Source: an uncultured Oleispira sp. (GTDB lineage Bacteria; Pseudomonadota; Gammaproteobacteria; Pseudomonadales; Oceanobacteraceae). From it: a stretch of DNA of 64,000 nt. The stretch lies in the NCBI GenBank assembly GCA_913019965.1, contig CAJVZR010000010.1, positions 1-64,000 on the forward strand. Direction: 5' to 3'. Shown one piece after another: positions 33,304-46,053 of this stretch. Under the pieces are notes generated by a model that saw only the letters and a list, made by a program, of their open reading frames with translations, searched no databases and had not been told where the DNA came from. Every line of letters begins with the position of its first letter. Position 1 is the first letter of the stretch. The translations under genes and the position numbers were made by a program.

Positions 33304-33768
33304 CTATTCTCCACGATAGTCAGAGTGGCAACTGCGACAACCTTTATTGGCAAAAACAACCATCTGCTTTTTGATTTTTCTGTAATTTCCCTGCTTAGCA
33401 ATATCAACAAATAGTGACGCTTCTACCTGCATTGCTTGCGCTTTTTTCTTAAAGTCTTGGCTAAGGTTACCTTGCTCATCCCATATATCGCCCATCGCAC
33501 GAGATTTCCCCCCCATACTCCCAGTAGGAAATACGACTAACATATCCTCCGCCATTGCCGCTAAAGCTTCTCCATGACTGACGATATGGTCAAGGGATAA
33601 CTTATGTTTTATCAGTAACTTGATCGCTTTCGCATGTTTCCCCTTAGTCTCCATAAATAGCTGACGATACTTCATCATCGCGCTGCGGTCTTTATCTGCC
33701 GTCTTTGAATCTGCCATTCCTTGTAGCGGAAGGATCAAAATTAGACATGCCATCATTAACTTAATCAT
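33304..33768 (-). CDS. Cytochrome c'-like protein (class II c)
   Basis: A signal peptide (about residues 1-19) precedes a helical domain with one haem site, CRSCH at residues 144-148 near the C-terminus. This is the position expected of class II cytochromes c. These proteins bind NO and CO or pass electrons in the periplasm. Its start overlaps the stop of the upstream gene by one base (TGATG), so the two are coupled. It is divergent from the pentahaem operon. Confidence 0.88.
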   Translation of the reverse strand: MIKLMMACLILILPLQGMADSKTADKDRSAMMKYRQLFMETKGKHAKAIKLLIKHKLSLDHIVSHGEALAAMAEDMLVVFPTGSMGGKSRAMGDIWDEQGNLSQDFKKKAQAMQVEASLFVDIAKQGNYRKIKKQMVVFANKGCRSCHSDYRGE

Positions 33769-34127
33769 TATCGATCTCCACCGCGGCGGCGATTATGCAG
33801 GCACTTTAAAACATAATTGATAAGACCACTGAATTGCTTATCTTCAAAGGATTTAGCATTTGTTAGCCAGACACTGTTTAATCGAATCGAGGTTACCGTA
33901 AATTGAGGGACATTATCCTCAGGGCACTCAACAAAGGCTTCCGCTAATGCCTCTTCATTCTTTCCTGATTCGATGGCTTTACTGATTGCTTGCGAAGTTT
34001 TAAATACTTGCAATTCGCTAGGCATCATTTGGGTTGAGATACTCAGTTCAACTTCAAGCGCCCCAACCAAACTAGGAAAAGTGATCAAGAAAACGAATCC
34101 TAGCCAATACTTCTTAGCGTTTTTCAT
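33768..34127 (-). CDS. Secreted protein of unknown function, coupled to cytochrome c'
   Basis: The ATG at 34127 (GGAGC upstream) gives 119 residues with a signal peptide (about 1-22, ending VGALE). The mature part has two cysteines and a basic CLHNRRRGGD end, with no CxxCH. No family recognised. The partner cytochrome c' starts at its stop codon, so it may be a cytochrome partner or accessory protein. Confidence 0.7.
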   Translation of the reverse strand: MKNAKKYWLGFVFLITFPSLVGALEVELSISTQMMPSELQVFKTSQAISKAIESGKNEEALAEAFVECPEDNVPQFTVTSIRLNSVWLTNAKSFEDKQFSGLINYVLKCLHNRRRGGDR

Positions 34128-34294
34128 ACAATTTAGCTCCAATGAATAGTCAGCTATGACAAACACCCACCCATTATTATATTAGTCAGTCTTCGTCAGA
34201 GCGTCTTAGCTTTACCTTAGGTTATTAGCTTTTAATATATTAATCTGAATCAATATGAAATTATAACGAGTTATATAACGTCTATAATTCACCT

Positions 34295-34849
34295 ATGTCG
34301 TTACTTAATTACTTCGTTCTTACCTTCGCATTATTTCTAACTGCCTGCAGTGATACTAAATTGCATGAGCCACCACATGAGCATTTTTTTCAGGTCGGGT
34401 TATTTGGGCATGGCAGAGGAGCTATCGGCGACTTGCAGCTCAATTCTTTTTATTTTGAACGTCAGTGCGATAGCTGCCACGCGAATTCAACCGATAAACA
34501 TGGAAATATTGGACGCTGTAACCAGTGTCACCAGCCCCATATTTCTGGCTGGAATGACTCGATACTTGTCCGAGACCATAGCGCGCTTAAACTAACCAGC
34601 CAACCTCATCACGAGGAACTAAAGTGTACGGCTTGCCACCAATCACTCCTGCAGCGCAGTGATTTTAATAATACCCGCTGTCAGCACTGCCATAATCATC
34701 AAGCTAGGGATATCGAATATAGCCACGACCTGATGGATAATTACGATTATGAGGTATTTTCTCAAGCAGGCGCTTGTATCGCTTGTCATAGCCGGACCGG
34801 TAAACAGTACAGCCAGTATTTCGATATCAAGACGGGAGACAGCTTATGA
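34295..34849 (+). CDS. Pentahaem c-type cytochrome lipoprotein
   Basis: A lipobox (LTAC, Cys18) precedes five CxxCH sites at residues 58-62, 75-79, 111-115, 129-133 and 161-165. The total is only 184 residues, so the haems are tightly spaced. It should be an electron carrier anchored at the outer leaflet of the inner membrane or at the outer membrane. Its stop overlaps the next start (ATGA, 34846-34849), so it is coupled to the cytochrome b-PilZ protein. A TATAAT at 34283-34288 lies very close to the ATG, so the message may be leaderless. Confidence 0.9.
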   Translation: MSLLNYFVLTFALFLTACSDTKLHEPPHEHFFQVGLFGHGRGAIGDLQLNSFYFERQCDSCHANSTDKHGNIGRCNQCHQPHISGWNDSILVRDHSALKLTSQPHHEELKCTACHQSLLQRSDFNNTRCQHCHNHQARDIEYSHDLMDNYDYEVFSQAGACIACHSRTGKQYSQYFDIKTGDSL

Positions 34850-36117
34850 CTGACTCTCATCAACCCTCAGCAGATCACCCCCTCCACCAGCACGTGGGTT
34901 TTGAAGTACTGCCTGAACAAGACCGAATTAGAATCTCTCGCTTTAGTCGGCGCATACGCCTCTTACATTGGTTTAATGCGATCGCCATTATCAGTTTATA
35001 CGCGCTAGCAATTCAGTCCTTACTCTCTTCAATAAAAAGCCCAAGCTTCATCATTCCTGATTTAAGAGGTTGGCACATATTGATAGGTATTGTTTGGATT
35101 ATCGGAGTCCCTATTTTATGGGCAATTAGTCAATTTCAATTGCATAAAAAAAGGTCTGCCATTATCAGCGACCAACTCATTATTAAGCAAAGGCTGTTTT
35201 TATATACCTCGATCATTTTAATGTTCTTAATGGCAATTAGCGGTAGCCTACTCACGTTCTTAAGGCCTTATAACATTCCTGAACTGCGCAGTATTATATT
35301 ATTGCTGCACGGTTTCATTGCTTTCAGTTATTTACCGGTATTAGCCACTCATATTTACTTAGCCATTCTACAGCGAGAAAGTAGACAGTCTTTACGTACA
35401 ATGTTTACTGATGTCTATATCAAATATTTAATCCATAACCACATTCCTAACCTTCAATGCGGATTGAGTAACCAAGAAAAAATATTATTTATTAAAGGAC
35501 AAGTTTCTGACATTAACCTCAGAGGAGTTCATATTATCATTGAGCAAGGTAGCTGGCAGAAAAACATAACCTTAGACCAGTTGGTTAATATTGAATTTCA
35601 GCACCCAGAATTAACAGATTCCTTATCCCTGCCTATTGTTATTCAATCGCACTATATTAAAGATGCCAGCTTACATGTGCAATTCAACTTTAATTCATCG
35701 CTGCAAGACAATGCTTATCAGCTATTAGGCCGTGGATTATTCTTTCGTGCCCTTTTCTTAGCGCGTAGACATCACCCAAGAATCAGCTGCCACTACCCCG
35801 TCACCATTCAGCACAAGGCTAATAAGACAGTGGCTCATATCATTGATATCGGTACCGGGGGTATGGGTATTATTGCCCCAATTAAGATGTCTAAAGGAGA
35901 AAAAGTCACGATTGCATTACAAATTAAATGTCCACTGATTGATTGGCAGGTTGAAGCGGCCGTAGTTGTCATGTCTCATATCAAAAATAATGATTACAGT
36001 TATGGTTTATGCTTTAAAAATCTTAAAAGAAAACAATTTCAGCAATTATCTAAGATACTCACCCATACTCAAAGCCAACAACAAAACAAAAACATTCACT
36101 ACTGGCCGCAAAAATAG
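34846..36117 (+). CDS. Dihaem cytochrome b fused to a PilZ domain
   Basis: Residues 35-175 hold about four transmembrane helices with histidines at 41, 77, 155 and 169, placed like the haem ligands of cytochrome b561/formate dehydrogenase gamma-type subunits. The C-terminal part (about 300-405) is a PilZ domain. It has R308-x-x-x-R312 and D334-I-G-T-G-G-M-G341, the RxxxR and DxSxxG motifs with Ser replaced by Gly. Residues 205-295 contain a second, PilZ-like stretch (SDINLRGVHI) without an RxxxR. It probably reduces or is reduced by the coupled pentahaem lipoprotein, and c-di-GMP binding could gate this. I know of no described protein with this fusion. Confidence 0.88.
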   Translation: MTDSHQPSADHPLHQHVGFEVLPEQDRIRISRFSRRIRLLHWFNAIAIISLYALAIQSLLSSIKSPSFIIPDLRGWHILIGIVWIIGVPILWAISQFQLHKKRSAIISDQLIIKQRLFLYTSIILMFLMAISGSLLTFLRPYNIPELRSIILLLHGFIAFSYLPVLATHIYLAILQRESRQSLRTMFTDVYIKYLIHNHIPNLQCGLSNQEKILFIKGQVSDINLRGVHIIIEQGSWQKNITLDQLVNIEFQHPELTDSLSLPIVIQSHYIKDASLHVQFNFNSSLQDNAYQLLGRGLFFRALFLARRHHPRISCHYPVTIQHKANKTVAHIIDIGTGGMGIIAPIKMSKGEKVTIALQIKCPLIDWQVEAAVVVMSHIKNNDYSYGLCFKNLKRKQFQQLSKILTHTQSQQQNKNIHYWPQK

Positions 36118-36201: not shown

Positions 36202-37218
36202 ATGAATCAAAGCTTCTTCCTCTCTCGATTAAGTTGTCCATTTATATTGCTTGCTGCAGTGCTAACAAGTGATATTTCCTATGCTATGCAGGCCGCCGAC
36301 ACCCATTTTTATGGACGTATTCATGTTCGTTTAGCGACCATTAAAAACCAAGATACATCACTCAATAATGCAGGCCATCGATTAGGAATTAAAGGAGAAG
36401 GAGTACTCAATAATGGCTGGGATTTTTTCTATAAACTTGAAAGTGAACTTCATAATGATGATGGCCTAGGAAAAAAAGATGGCGCTGACGGCCATAACTT
36501 GGCTGAACCCAGTTCAACATCGAGCACAGATCTCGCCGACATTGTCATTCGCCATGCCCATCTTGGACTCTCTAATTCTTATGGTATTTTAACCTTAGGG
36601 CGCCAAAATAATCCGTTAGCTAACAGTTATACCGCCGATGTCTTTGAAGCTAATTCGGGCTCTTTTGAACAGACTTCGTTTCGCCTGGGTCATGCGGCAA
36701 TTTTTCAAACGCCCAATACAGGAAAAGCACGAGCTTACCTAGGCGCCATTTTAGAAGGTGGTGGAGATGACAAAGAAAACGAGCAATTGGATGGTTATGT
36801 TATTGGTGGCCAATATAAGTTAGCAAATTTTGTTATCCACTTAGGGGCTTTTCATGCAGATTTTAAAAGCTTAGATAGCGACCAATCTGAATTCAGCGAT
36901 GTTTCAGCAGCAATTGCATATCGATCAGGCAATCTTTATCTAGCAGCCAATGGTGAACAATCAATACTGCAAGCACCCGATGGCAGCAAAATAACAACGG
37001 ATAAACTAGACCTTGCAATGACATATTCTCTAAATACAGTTACTTACGGCATTGGCTATGCTGTACAAGATAGTGAGGATATTCAAAGTGATCGTATTTT
37101 ATTCGGCGCCTACCTAGATTTAAGCAGTAATAATGATTTATATATTGAGTTAGGTTTATTAAATAAAGCTGCTGGGGATAGCGATAATCTAGTAGCTGGT
37201 TATCGAATTACTTTTTAG
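36202..37218 (+). CDS. Gram-negative porin
   Basis: A signal peptide (about residues 1-30) precedes a general porin (porin_4 type). FYGRIHVRLATI, then LGIKGEGVLNNGWDFFYKLE and LGRQNNPLANSY, are typical, and it ends in YRITF with C-terminal Phe. The ATG at 36202 is preferred because CGGAG lies upstream; an in-frame start at 36172 has none. It follows the cytochrome b-PilZ gene with an 84-base gap. Confidence 0.87.
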   Translation: MNQSFFLSRLSCPFILLAAVLTSDISYAMQAADTHFYGRIHVRLATIKNQDTSLNNAGHRLGIKGEGVLNNGWDFFYKLESELHNDDGLGKKDGADGHNLAEPSSTSSTDLADIVIRHAHLGLSNSYGILTLGRQNNPLANSYTADVFEANSGSFEQTSFRLGHAAIFQTPNTGKARAYLGAILEGGGDDKENEQLDGYVIGGQYKLANFVIHLGAFHADFKSLDSDQSEFSDVSAAIAYRSGNLYLAANGEQSILQAPDGSKITTDKLDLAMTYSLNTVTYGIGYAVQDSEDIQSDRILFGAYLDLSSNNDLYIELGLLNKAAGDSDNLVAGYRITF

Positions 37219-39440: not shown

Positions 39441-39530
39441 GATACAGGTACTGATAGATATAAAAACTATTGCGAAATTAACTTAAATCGATAAGCTGTA
39501 AAGAATGTATATTCTTAGAGTTTGAATTAT

Positions 39531-40346
39531 ATGAATAAATTATTTTCAACAATAATTGTATTCCTAATAAACTTAACCGCTTTTTTCTGCTTGCTTCCTT
39601 CAATAGCATTGTCTCTTGATGAAGACACCGCGTCCAAATTAATCAATATCGCGACCATTGACTACCCTCCTCTCATGGGGGAGCAAGAAGGATTAATGAC
39701 CGATATTGTAAAGGAAGCTTTTTCAATTCAAGAATATCAAGTGAATTATACCCTAATACCGATGGCAAGAATTGCTTGGTCTATTACTGAGGGAGATAGT
39801 GATGCGGCAATCGGCAGTATTCATTGGCTAAGAGGAAAACAGCTTCTAGAGCAGGTGAGACATAAAACCATTTATTATACCGGCATGCACTTATTTTACC
39901 GGAAACAGCAATTTCCCGAGGGCATTAACTATCAAGACTTATCAGAAATCAATCAGTACAAGATTGGTTATATTCGATCTGGTTCTATGCTACAGGTTTT
40001 GAAAAAGGCTGGAATCAAGCCCCAGTTAGTTAAAGACTTAGCAACCAATAGCCGAAAGTTGAAAACTCAACGCATAGACATGTTTGTTGCAACTGAACTC
40101 GGAGGCTGGGGAGCCATTAAAAAGAAGTACCCTGATGCAGTAAATGAGTTTGCTATGATGCCCAGACCCATACTCGATATTCTGGGTAGTGGGGACGTGA
40201 TATTTCCGCTTAAAAATAAACATATACAAGGCATATTCGAGCGCGGATTATTAAAGCTAATAAATAACGGAGGTTACAGACAGATATTGGAAAAATATTA
40301 TGGCAAGGGGAAAATCCCTACCAATCTATTGCCATTGATTCTTTGA
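39531..40346 (+). CDS. Periplasmic solute-binding-like protein (SBP_bac_3 type)
   Basis: A signal peptide (about residues 1-27) and a polar-amino-acid-binding fold are seen: IATIDYPPLMGEQEGL near the start, SDAAIGSIHWLRG and the late YRQILEKYYGKG. No transport partners are nearby. The ATG at 39531 is used; an upstream TTG at 39522 lacks space for its ribosome site. Confidence 0.78.
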   Translation: MNKLFSTIIVFLINLTAFFCLLPSIALSLDEDTASKLINIATIDYPPLMGEQEGLMTDIVKEAFSIQEYQVNYTLIPMARIAWSITEGDSDAAIGSIHWLRGKQLLEQVRHKTIYYTGMHLFYRKQQFPEGINYQDLSEINQYKIGYIRSGSMLQVLKKAGIKPQLVKDLATNSRKLKTQRIDMFVATELGGWGAIKKKYPDAVNEFAMMPRPILDILGSGDVIFPLKNKHIQGIFERGLLKLINNGGYRQILEKYYGKGKIPTNLLPLIL

Positions 40347-43515: not shown

Positions 43516-43618
43516 TCATATTACTATAGTAGGAACTGCTATCTCGTAAGTTAAGTCTATACTTGCACCGATGACCATACAGGATAAACTTAACAATAGT
43601 ACATTAGGAAAGTTATTC

Positions 43619-44659
43619 ATGCAGGTTCCTTATTATTACCATGCGCTTATTAATAAAACGACTATGAACAAGATTGTAATTATTCCCCTCATAGGTTTAT
43701 TGTTCGTATTTAGCACGTATTCAGCCTTTGCTCACTCTTACGGTGCCATATCACCAGCCAGTATTCCTGCTATTTATTTGAATACCAAACAAAGACCCAT
43801 GACAATTGCTCAACCCCCTAATACTCTAAGTCAGAAAGCGAAAATTCATCTAGGGAAACAACTATTCGAAGATACCAATTTATCAAAATCAGGAGAAATG
43901 GCCTGCTCTACCTGCCACCAAGCAAGCATGGGCTTCAGTGATGGAAGAGATTTCTCCCTAGACAATCAAGGCACCCCTTTGCCTTACAATACTCCCAGCA
44001 TTCAATATGTCGCATTTAACTATTACTTTGGATGGACTGCTCGCTTTCCTCACTTACAGGAACACTTAGATGCACTAATGACCAACCCTAAGTTAATGGA
44101 CCGAAATTGGCCTGAATTAAGTCAAAAAATTAAACAAAATGATATCTATGTTCAGCTTTTTAATAATGCAGGTTATGACGAAATATCAAGAACAACGATT
44201 AGCGATGCTATTATTCAATACGAATACAGCTTAGCTAAACCCTCTCGTTACGATCTTTATATACTGGGAGATAAACAGCAATTCTCAGAAAAAGAAAACC
44301 TAGGTTATTCATTATTCAAAGAATTTGGCTGCAGCAGTTGCCATCAAGGAAAAAACCTAGGGGGAAATTTACGGCAGAAATTTGGTGTAATGAAATCATA
44401 CTTTAACGAACATAATAAAATTGAGGAACGAGATCTTGGTTACTATACGACAACATTGAAAGATGAAGATCGTTTCTACTTCAGAGTTCCGAGCTTAAGA
44501 AATGTAACTAATACTGCTCCCTATTTTCATGATGGTTCTGCTAAAACACTAGCAATGGCTATTGAAATCATGTTCGTATACCAATTGGGAATTAAACCCA
44601 GCGATACTGACATTAATCTTATTGAATCTTTTCTTCATACTCTGGAACCAGTCGAATGA
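43619..44659 (+). CDS. Dihaem cytochrome c peroxidase family protein
   Basis: The protein has a signal peptide and two CxxCH haem sites, CSTCHQASMGF (N-terminal half) and CSSCHQGKNLGG (C-terminal half), as in bacterial cytochrome c peroxidase/MauG. It also has FHDGSAKTLAMAIEIM, as in the family. It should reduce hydrogen peroxide, or carry out a MauG-like oxidation, in the periplasm. The ATG at 43619 follows AGGAAA; another at 43664 would give a shorter signal peptide without a good ribosome site. The stop overlaps the GGDEF start (ATGA, 44656-44659). Confidence 0.87.
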   Translation: MQVPYYYHALINKTTMNKIVIIPLIGLLFVFSTYSAFAHSYGAISPASIPAIYLNTKQRPMTIAQPPNTLSQKAKIHLGKQLFEDTNLSKSGEMACSTCHQASMGFSDGRDFSLDNQGTPLPYNTPSIQYVAFNYYFGWTARFPHLQEHLDALMTNPKLMDRNWPELSQKIKQNDIYVQLFNNAGYDEISRTTISDAIIQYEYSLAKPSRYDLYILGDKQQFSEKENLGYSLFKEFGCSSCHQGKNLGGNLRQKFGVMKSYFNEHNKIEERDLGYYTTTLKDEDRFYFRVPSLRNVTNTAPYFHDGSAKTLAMAIEIMFVYQLGIKPSDTDINLIESFLHTLEPVE

Positions 44660-46053
44660 TGACTCAGGCTCGTCAAGTACGCTCTTTAATCATTGCGAGT
44701 ATTCTAGCGTTACCATTACTGTTCATTTATTTAAAGTCTGAAATGAACAATATACTGATATCAAAAGAATTCGATAATTTATTACTAGACGTTAGACAAA
44801 TCAACTCTGAACTGTCAGAGCATATGTTACGCAGCCGCAGCAAACTTGATCAGCACTATGATTATTTAGCCAATGCTCAACTCAGATTCACAGATACAAT
44901 GATACTTTTTAAAAATTCATTATTATCCAGTGATAGTAAAATAAATGTTCACGCTGAGGCTGTTTATCATCTCTATGAAATTCGAATGCAACAGCTAGAG
45001 CAATTTAAATCATTGAATGCTCTAACTCGTAATTCATTACGTTACTTACCAAAATTAGAAGAACAACTACGTCTTTTACTCCTTAATAACAATGTTGTCC
45101 TATTAAAAGCTGTCGAACAAATAGTTATCAATTCATTAAAGCTTCGATTATTTGATGACTCTGACCTAATGATCACCACCAATAAATCGATTAATTTAAT
45201 TGAGAAACATATTGCTTCTCTTTCTGACCTTGAACAATCCATTCTCAATGCTTTCGTAAATCATGCTCGACACTTTCAGAAAATCAGTAATAAAGAACGA
45301 AAATTGGTGAATGCAATACTGAGTAATCAATTGAGTATAGAGCTATCATCACTTGAAAAAAGTTTAAATGAGCAACATCATAAAGAGATAATTAAGACCA
45401 ACCAAATCAAGCAGTATTTGATTATTTATACGGTCTTTTTGCTCTTGTTAATTATTTTATTCACTGTTAATCGTTTTCACTTAATTAATAGAGCATTATT
45501 TCATAAAATGTTGAGTGAAAAGGATCAATTAACCAATCTTAATAATCGCCGAAGCTTTATATCTCATTTAAAAAATGCGATGAAAAATGCTAATCAAAGC
45601 GATCAATTTGGTGCTCTTATTTTTATTGATTTAGACGGTTTTAAAACCATTAATGACAAACTAGGTCATAATGCAGGTGATGAAGTATTAAAAATAATCT
45701 CACAGCGATTACAAGATCATGCTGATTCAACTCAAACACCAGAATCCCCTATATGCGTTGCCCGCTTAGGAGGAGATGAGTTTGTTCTGCTATTCGAACG
45801 ATTAGAACGAGAAGAGGTTTCCAGTCGGCTAGTTTCATCTGCTGAGAAAGTCGTTATATCTTGCGCACGTGAATTACCTGAACCTTACGGCTCTTTTCCA
45901 TTATCCGCTAGTGTCGGAATTTCAATATTTCCAGATCACGGAACTGATATAGAGACTGTTTTGAATTGTGCGGATAAAGCTATGTACCAGTCGAAACGAC
46001 AAGGAAAAAATCGCTTCACTCTATACCAGCCAACGCTACATAATGAACCATAA
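44656..46053 (+). CDS. Membrane DAHL-GGDEF diguanylate cyclase
   Basis: The 465 residues have an N-terminal helix (about 8-26) and a large all-helical periplasmic sensor (about 30-250, DAHL-like; SELSEHMLRSRSKLDQHYDY). A second transmembrane helix (about 252-276) is followed by a complete GGDEF domain with the active motif GGDEF in ARLGGDEFVLLF. The inhibitory I-site RxxD is absent (ESPI at that place), so product inhibition is not expected. It is translationally coupled to the peroxidase, so its sensor may track the peroxidase product, the redox state, or direct contact. Confidence 0.9.
   Translation: MMTQARQVRSLIIASILALPLLFIYLKSEMNNILISKEFDNLLLDVRQINSELSEHMLRSRSKLDQHYDYLANAQLRFTDTMILFKNSLLSSDSKINVHAEAVYHLYEIRMQQLEQFKSLNALTRNSLRYLPKLEEQLRLLLLNNNVVLLKAVEQIVINSLKLRLFDDSDLMITTNKSINLIEKHIASLSDLEQSILNAFVNHARHFQKISNKERKLVNAILSNQLSIELSSLEKSLNEQHHKEIIKTNQIKQYLIIYTVFLLLLIILFTVNRFHLINRALFHKMLSEKDQLTNLNNRRSFISHLKNAMKNANQSDQFGALIFIDLDGFKTINDKLGHNAGDEVLKIISQRLQDHADSTQTPESPICVARLGGDEFVLLFERLEREEVSSRLVSSAEKVVISCARELPEPYGSFPLSASVGISIFPDHGTDIETVLNCADKAMYQSKRQGKNRFTLYQPTLHNEP

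Follow-up and report, generated by a model that had tools for sequence, protein, structure and literature searches.

A predicted dihaem cytochrome b fused to a two-barrel PilZ unit: a possible c-di-GMP-responsive electron-transfer subunit in an uncultured Oleispira

We have analysed a 64,000-nucleotide stretch of DNA from an uncultured Oleispira sp. (contig CAJVZR010000010.1; the whole stretch is referred to here as the window) and found a gene that joins a cytochrome b561-type membrane domain to a degenerate PilZ-like barrel and a PilZ domain, in this order, and that is linked to a gene for a pentahaem lipoprotein. The arrangement of these two known domain families is one that we have not found described, and the module in which they are encoded is rare, being carried by a few marine bacteria, and conserved within one order, as far as sampled. 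The domain architecture, the conservation of ligand residues and the linkage of the genes were observed directly. The reading that we favour, tentatively and with a little less than even confidence, is that the fusion is a c-di-GMP-responsive membrane electron-transfer subunit that connects the quinone pool with the lipoprotein. The arrangement suggests, without proving, that c-di-GMP directly controls a respiration-like step of electron flow.

Architecture and partners of the fusion

The module and the parts of the fusion lie in the window as follows.
33304..33768, minus strand: class II cytochrome c (PF01322), possibly c556-like
33768..34127, minus strand: small exported protein, no family matched, with relatives in five other genomes
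34295..34849, plus strand: pentahaem lipoprotein of 184 aa, with five CXXCH motifs and a lipobox-like LTAC
34846..36117, plus strand: fusion gene, 423 residues, characterised by Pfam, fold comparison, a six-orthologue alignment and its histidines
34939..35409, plus strand: PF01292 domain of the fusion, residues 32-188, with His41, His77, His155 and His169
35434..35760, plus strand: first, degenerate PilZ-like barrel of the fusion, residues ~197-305, without RxxxR
35764..36060, plus strand: second PilZ domain of the fusion, residues 307-405, with RHHPR and DIGTGG
36205..37218, plus strand: porin (Porin_4), start codon uncertain, with relatives linked to the module in five other genomes

The membrane domain matched prokaryotic cytochrome b561 (PF01292) over positions 1-178 of the 179 in the profile (E 1.1e-13, 51.8 bits against a cut-off of 30.1), and the C-terminal domain matched PilZ (PF07238) with E 1.7e-18 and 67.3 bits against a cut-off of 22.5. 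Both families were matched in 5/5 orthologues scanned with Pfam at E up to 1, a scan that covered five of the six carriers and left out L074, which was found by profile search at 507.7 bits. The four histidines are invariant in the alignment of six orthologues and are column-matched in all 16 sequences when ten unfused superfamily relatives, three of them from the window's own genome, are aligned with the six fusions (eight of the ten unfused loci were taken initially, two having been dropped by a threshold of E < 0.01 and added later). Thus, the proposal of a preliminary description that this half is a dihaem cytochrome b holds up, with a near-complete profile match and the conserved histidines as two predicted pairs of haem ligands. 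The residue numbers given there were exact (His41, His77, His155 and His169; R308 and R312; D334-G339 as DIGTGG), the PilZ profile was found at the expected place, and neither a missing PilZ match nor unconserved histidines were encountered; of the two families that had been named for the membrane half, cytochrome b561 was matched whereas formate dehydrogenase gamma fell far under its NCBIfam cut-off. No PDB sequence match was obtained for the profile of the whole fusion up to E 0.1 or for that of the membrane part up to E 10.

The lipoprotein carries CXXCH at 58, 75, 111, 129 and 161, and five such motifs are present in 6/6 orthologues. Seven further histidines (39, 69, 95, 106, 131, 135 and 144) are invariant in the lipoprotein alignment and would suffice for each of the five haems to have two histidine ligands. 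A Cytochrome_C7 profile matches the protein above the Pfam cut-off, and the structure model was unusable (mean pLDDT 37.8). The residue at +2 of the lipobox is Ser in four of the six lipoproteins, L006 having Glu and L074 Asp; Ser at this position directs sorting to the outer membrane and Asp is an inner-membrane signal, and by this rule mixed sorting is predicted. As described previously, the lipoprotein gene ends at 34849 and the fusion gene starts at 34846 in an ATGA overlap; the overlap is, however, peculiar to the window genome, the other five having gaps of 3, 22, 39, 53 and 69 bases. The partnership itself is kept, both genes being adjacent and in the same direction in 6/6 genomes, which we count for the electron-transfer reading. 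Three further genes of the module had been missed. In 5/6 genomes, at 34282-34297 in the window and at the equivalent position in L003-L006, the lipoprotein ATG is preceded at a distance of 6-7 bases by the hexamer TATAAT or TATAGT; it is absent from L074, and fits the pattern of a leaderless messenger. Control of the divergent promoter by FNR/Anr was considered from a one-mismatch FNR-like site at 34240-34253 (equalled in 1.9% of shuffles of that region) and rejected, as such sites occur at chance in the window (6 against 5.49 expected) and the five relatives hold no site above 7/10 positions.

The whole module, comprising the class II cytochrome c, the small exported protein, the lipoprotein, the fusion and the porin, was found in 6/6 carrier genomes, the contig of L005 ending within the porin gene and that of L004 truncating the cytochrome c gene. 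The genes for cytochrome c and the small exported protein are divergent from those for the lipoprotein and fusion, and the porin gene comes after the fusion in four genomes, whereas in L006 and L074 it is found on the far side of the cytochrome c gene. Outer neighbours, where readable, differ between loci, and the linkage therefore amounts to more than general synteny. Near the window's module, a family 3 solute-binding protein is encoded at 39522-40346 (plus strand), and a protein adjoining the module in L074 (5620-6423, minus strand) is similar to it by eye. The cytochrome c matches PF01322 (cytochrome c') with 63.7 bits against a cut-off of 26.5; its Met39, invariant in 5/5 aligned carriers (L004, cut by the contig, was left out), faces a Phe in chain 6a3k, a cytochrome c', at what we take to be the distal haem position. 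Its haem may thus be six-coordinate, and the protein a c556-like carrier instead of a gas-binding cytochrome c'. Searches of Pfam (with E up to 0.1 and up to 1), NCBIfam and PHROGs matched no family to the small exported protein of the window; invariant Cys68 and Cys109 and an ECPxDN motif are found in 6/6 orthologues. The porin matches Porin_4, and Porin_1 only under its cut-off. No oxidoreductase or terminal reductase was found within the module, which we count against the electron-transfer reading.

Distribution of the fusion and the module

The pair of fusion and lipoprotein, for which a survey of other genomes had been proposed, is present in five others, and the full-length fusion orthologues in these genomes rule out an assembly chimera. 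L003, L004 and L005 are Bermanella records (47, 46 and 45% identity to the window fusion, respectively), L006 is an uncultured Saccharospirillaceae (34%) and L074, or G554, belongs to another family of the order (41%); genomes G019, G423 and G422 of the family scan were taken as L003, L004 and L005 from matching coordinates. The full-length fusion was detected in 4/44 genomes of the window's family and 2/390 of the order, and only in the window's own genome in the class and phylum samples (369 each), these samples being overlapping. A named genome collection scanned with two peptide patterns, which can miss diverged copies, yielded four fusion loci, and the plasmids searched gave no match. High-scoring lipoproteins in the order samples (381 genomes) are confined to the same two genomes that hold the fusion among 390, which again counts for the electron-transfer reading. 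Across the 369 class and 381 order genomes, lipoprotein matches beyond G000 and G554 had E values of 2.2e-6 or worse; they are partial, lie in frames of 234-726 residues and are read as putative generic multihaem hits.

Among the matches listed in the class, order and phylum scans, which scored about four candidates per genome and could miss a diverged fusion, non-carriers covered only one of the two regions, the cytochrome-side matches lying in frames of 179-282 residues. The PilZ-side loci whose long frames were inspected encode chemoreceptor-PilZ, cellulose synthase, a hydrolase-like protein with PilZ and other PilZ proteins, and by inspection no cytochrome fusion; they represent part of the matches, namely nine loci, in addition two chemoreceptors in wider stretches and one repeat, and another six loci, of which three were repeats or from the family scan. 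The matching PilZ-side frame of L009, at 147 residues, is shorter than the frames inspected. No description of a PilZ-cytochrome b fusion or of the module was found in open-access titles and the beginnings of abstracts, a source outside which most subscription papers and preprints lie.

Two barrels and a possible c-di-GMP switch

The soluble half appears to contain two barrels. Assignment of residues 307-405 to PilZ stands, with RxxxR (R308 and R312) invariant in 6/6 orthologues, an observation that we count for c-di-GMP-responsive electron transfer, but a second PilZ-like barrel ahead of it had been overlooked. D/N334 and G339 are likewise retained in 6/6. The [DN]xSxxG motif is incomplete in the window protein, which has Gly in place of Ser; this position is Ser in 2/6 orthologues and G, C, C and A in the others, which counts against that reading. 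Because of this variation c-di-GMP binding by the fusion cannot be assumed. When scanned alone, the first barrel of the window protein matched PilZ slightly under the cut-off (E 3.6e-4); the match was above the cut-off in L004 and L005, weak in L003 (E 0.018) and absent in L006, in a scan without L074. E. coli YcgR has a PilZ domain on which residues 186-311 of the fusion model superpose (Z 9.6, rmsd 5.0 Å, 119 residues). Profiles of the two barrels aligned weakly in hhalign (E 0.028 with a probability of 1.8, compared with E 0.79 in a control that used the membrane part), pairing N-x-x-P-N-x-x-C of the first barrel with R-x-x-P-R-x-x-C of the second domain. We therefore read residues ~197-305 not as a plain linker but as a degenerate PilZ barrel that lacks the arginine pair, ahead of a PilZ domain in which the pair is retained. 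In two-barrel receptors RxxxR is situated at the barrel junction, and by analogy the RxxxR of the fusion would fall at the junction of its own two barrels. In VIA-align, residues 110-304 of the model matched BcsA (Z 8.7); the membrane part also gave helical proteins to which it is unrelated (TRPV3, with Z up to 8.6), and no FdnI-type structure was among the matches listed. With a mean pLDDT of 52.9 the model of the fusion is weak, which counts against the electron-transfer reading, and the fold matches are thus support and not proof.

We infer the topology, partners, c-di-GMP binding, gating and electron direction of the complex as follows. The window fusion has four helices by a simple hydropathy count, the five orthologues giving 3 to 7 peaks, which is counted against the reading; five K/R and a single D/E lie in the loop between helices 2 and 3, and each of the two opposite loops contains two K/R. 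Hydropathy and loop charge point to a four-helix domain with both ends, and the PilZ half, in the cytoplasm, where c-di-GMP is located. In FdnI one haem is ligated on the cytoplasmic and one on the periplasmic side; by analogy, His41 and His169 would ligate the cytoplasm-side haem and His77 and His155 the periplasm-side haem. A quinone site near the cytoplasm-side haem would exchange electrons with the quinone pool, and the two b haems would relay electrons to the pentahaem lipoprotein, from which the class II cytochrome c or a different partner in the periplasm would receive them; quinol oxidation is the net direction that we would prefer. c-di-GMP would bind the second PilZ domain through Arg308 and Arg312 at the junction of the barrels and shift the soluble half with respect to the membrane interface, switching the step on or off. 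In cellulose synthase BcsA, a PilZ domain next to the membrane helices acts as the gate, and switching in the fusion may be much the same.

The window genome contains 56 GGDEF and 11 PilZ matches, one of the latter being the fusion; c-di-GMP signalling is therefore extensive, which counts for c-di-GMP-responsive electron transfer. Also counted for it are the matches to both domain families in the orthologues scanned, the invariant and aligned histidines of the membrane domain, the CXXCH motifs and further invariant histidines of the lipoproteins, the differing outer neighbours and the positively charged loop between helices 2 and 3. About 7.5 kb downstream of the fusion, a dihaem peroxidase/MauG-type gene (CCP_MauG, E 4.6e-40) has an ATGA overlap with a DAHL-GGDEF diguanylate cyclase gene, a second ATGA-coupled pair of haem protein and c-di-GMP protein (43571-46053, plus strand). 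To our knowledge, PilZ outputs comprise polysaccharide synthesis, motility, pili and transcription. It is possible, if doubtful, that the module is a novel type of c-di-GMP effector, in which a two-barrel PilZ unit reads the messenger on the cytoplasmic side and directly switches transmembrane electron transfer between quinone pool and a dedicated lipoprotein, so that the decision between sessile and motile life would govern one branch of respiration by acting on protein, with no transcriptional step. Were this so, c-di-GMP would act directly on energy metabolism through a PilZ unit on a dihaem cytochrome, an action that becomes testable with a compact two- or five-gene module in a laboratory host.

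Other readings distribute the same evidence differently. The signal may run in reverse, the haems sensing the redox state of the quinone pool or periplasm and altering binding of c-di-GMP or a partner by the PilZ half, so that the fusion is a redox sensor and no respiratory subunit. Its partner could be, for instance, a motility or envelope target, as with YcgR. The best Foldseek matches, namely the two-barrel receptors MotI/DgrA, MrkH and YcgR plus cellulose synthase, and a module without a dedicated terminal enzyme speak for such a sensor; however, the five c haems together with another cytochrome c and a porin seem a great deal of apparatus for one, the module holds no PilZ target gene, and we regard this reading as somewhat unlikely. 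Alternatively, and in our judgement quite unlikely, the PilZ half no longer binds c-di-GMP, and its only role is in the assembly or docking of an ordinary complex that transfers electrons between quinone and lipoprotein. A first barrel without RxxxR and substitution of the motif serine in 4/6 orthologues would fit such a loss, whereas retention of R308, R312, D/N334 and G339 in all six and the strong PilZ match of the second domain argue against it.

Electrons might also flow inwards: periplasmic or outer-membrane donors would pass them to the pentahaem lipoprotein, and the b haems would deliver them to the quinone pool, whether or not c-di-GMP controls the step. Membership of the porin in the module and the Ser at +2 in 4/6 lipoproteins, which would sort them to the outer membrane, are in keeping with quinone reduction. 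The porin is, however, a general Porin_4 protein, the Glu of L006 and the inner-membrane Asp of L074 do not follow the Ser pattern, no dehydrogenase is linked, and we consider this direction very unlikely.

Comparison with known systems

With the cytochrome b561 superfamily (PF01292; FdnI, PhsC, hydrogenase cytochrome b and CybB) the fusion shares the near-complete profile and the same four histidines in 16/16 sequences; in contrast to its members, it adds a PilZ half and has no catalytic subunit adjoining, and it lies far under the NCBIfam cut-offs of both formate dehydrogenase gamma and hydrogenase cytochrome b. The lipoprotein resembles small multihaem cytochromes (c3, c7 and NrfB, itself a small multihaem cytochrome) in being compact, with five CXXCH motifs and the Cytochrome_C7 match above cut-off, but is a lipoprotein; its PDB matches to c3 are weak (best E 0.012), and NrfB is absent from the seven PDB matches listed. 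Unlike an MtrCAB-type porin-cytochrome conduit, the module has no MtrB-type barrel, its porin matching Porin_4, and Porin_1 under the cut-off. BcsA is similar in that PilZ directly follows membrane helices, and the fusion has a weak match to TIGR03030 at 118-262 (32.7 bits against a cut-off of 699.1), but it lacks the glycosyltransferase domain. Two-barrel receptors (YcgR, MrkH and MotI/DgrA), which are among the best Foldseek matches, share the two consecutive barrels with RxxxR at the junction. The YcgR N-domain family was not among Pfam matches of the fusion up to E 1, its first barrel weakly matching PilZ itself, and its barrels, unlike those of the receptors, are attached to a predicted dihaem membrane domain.
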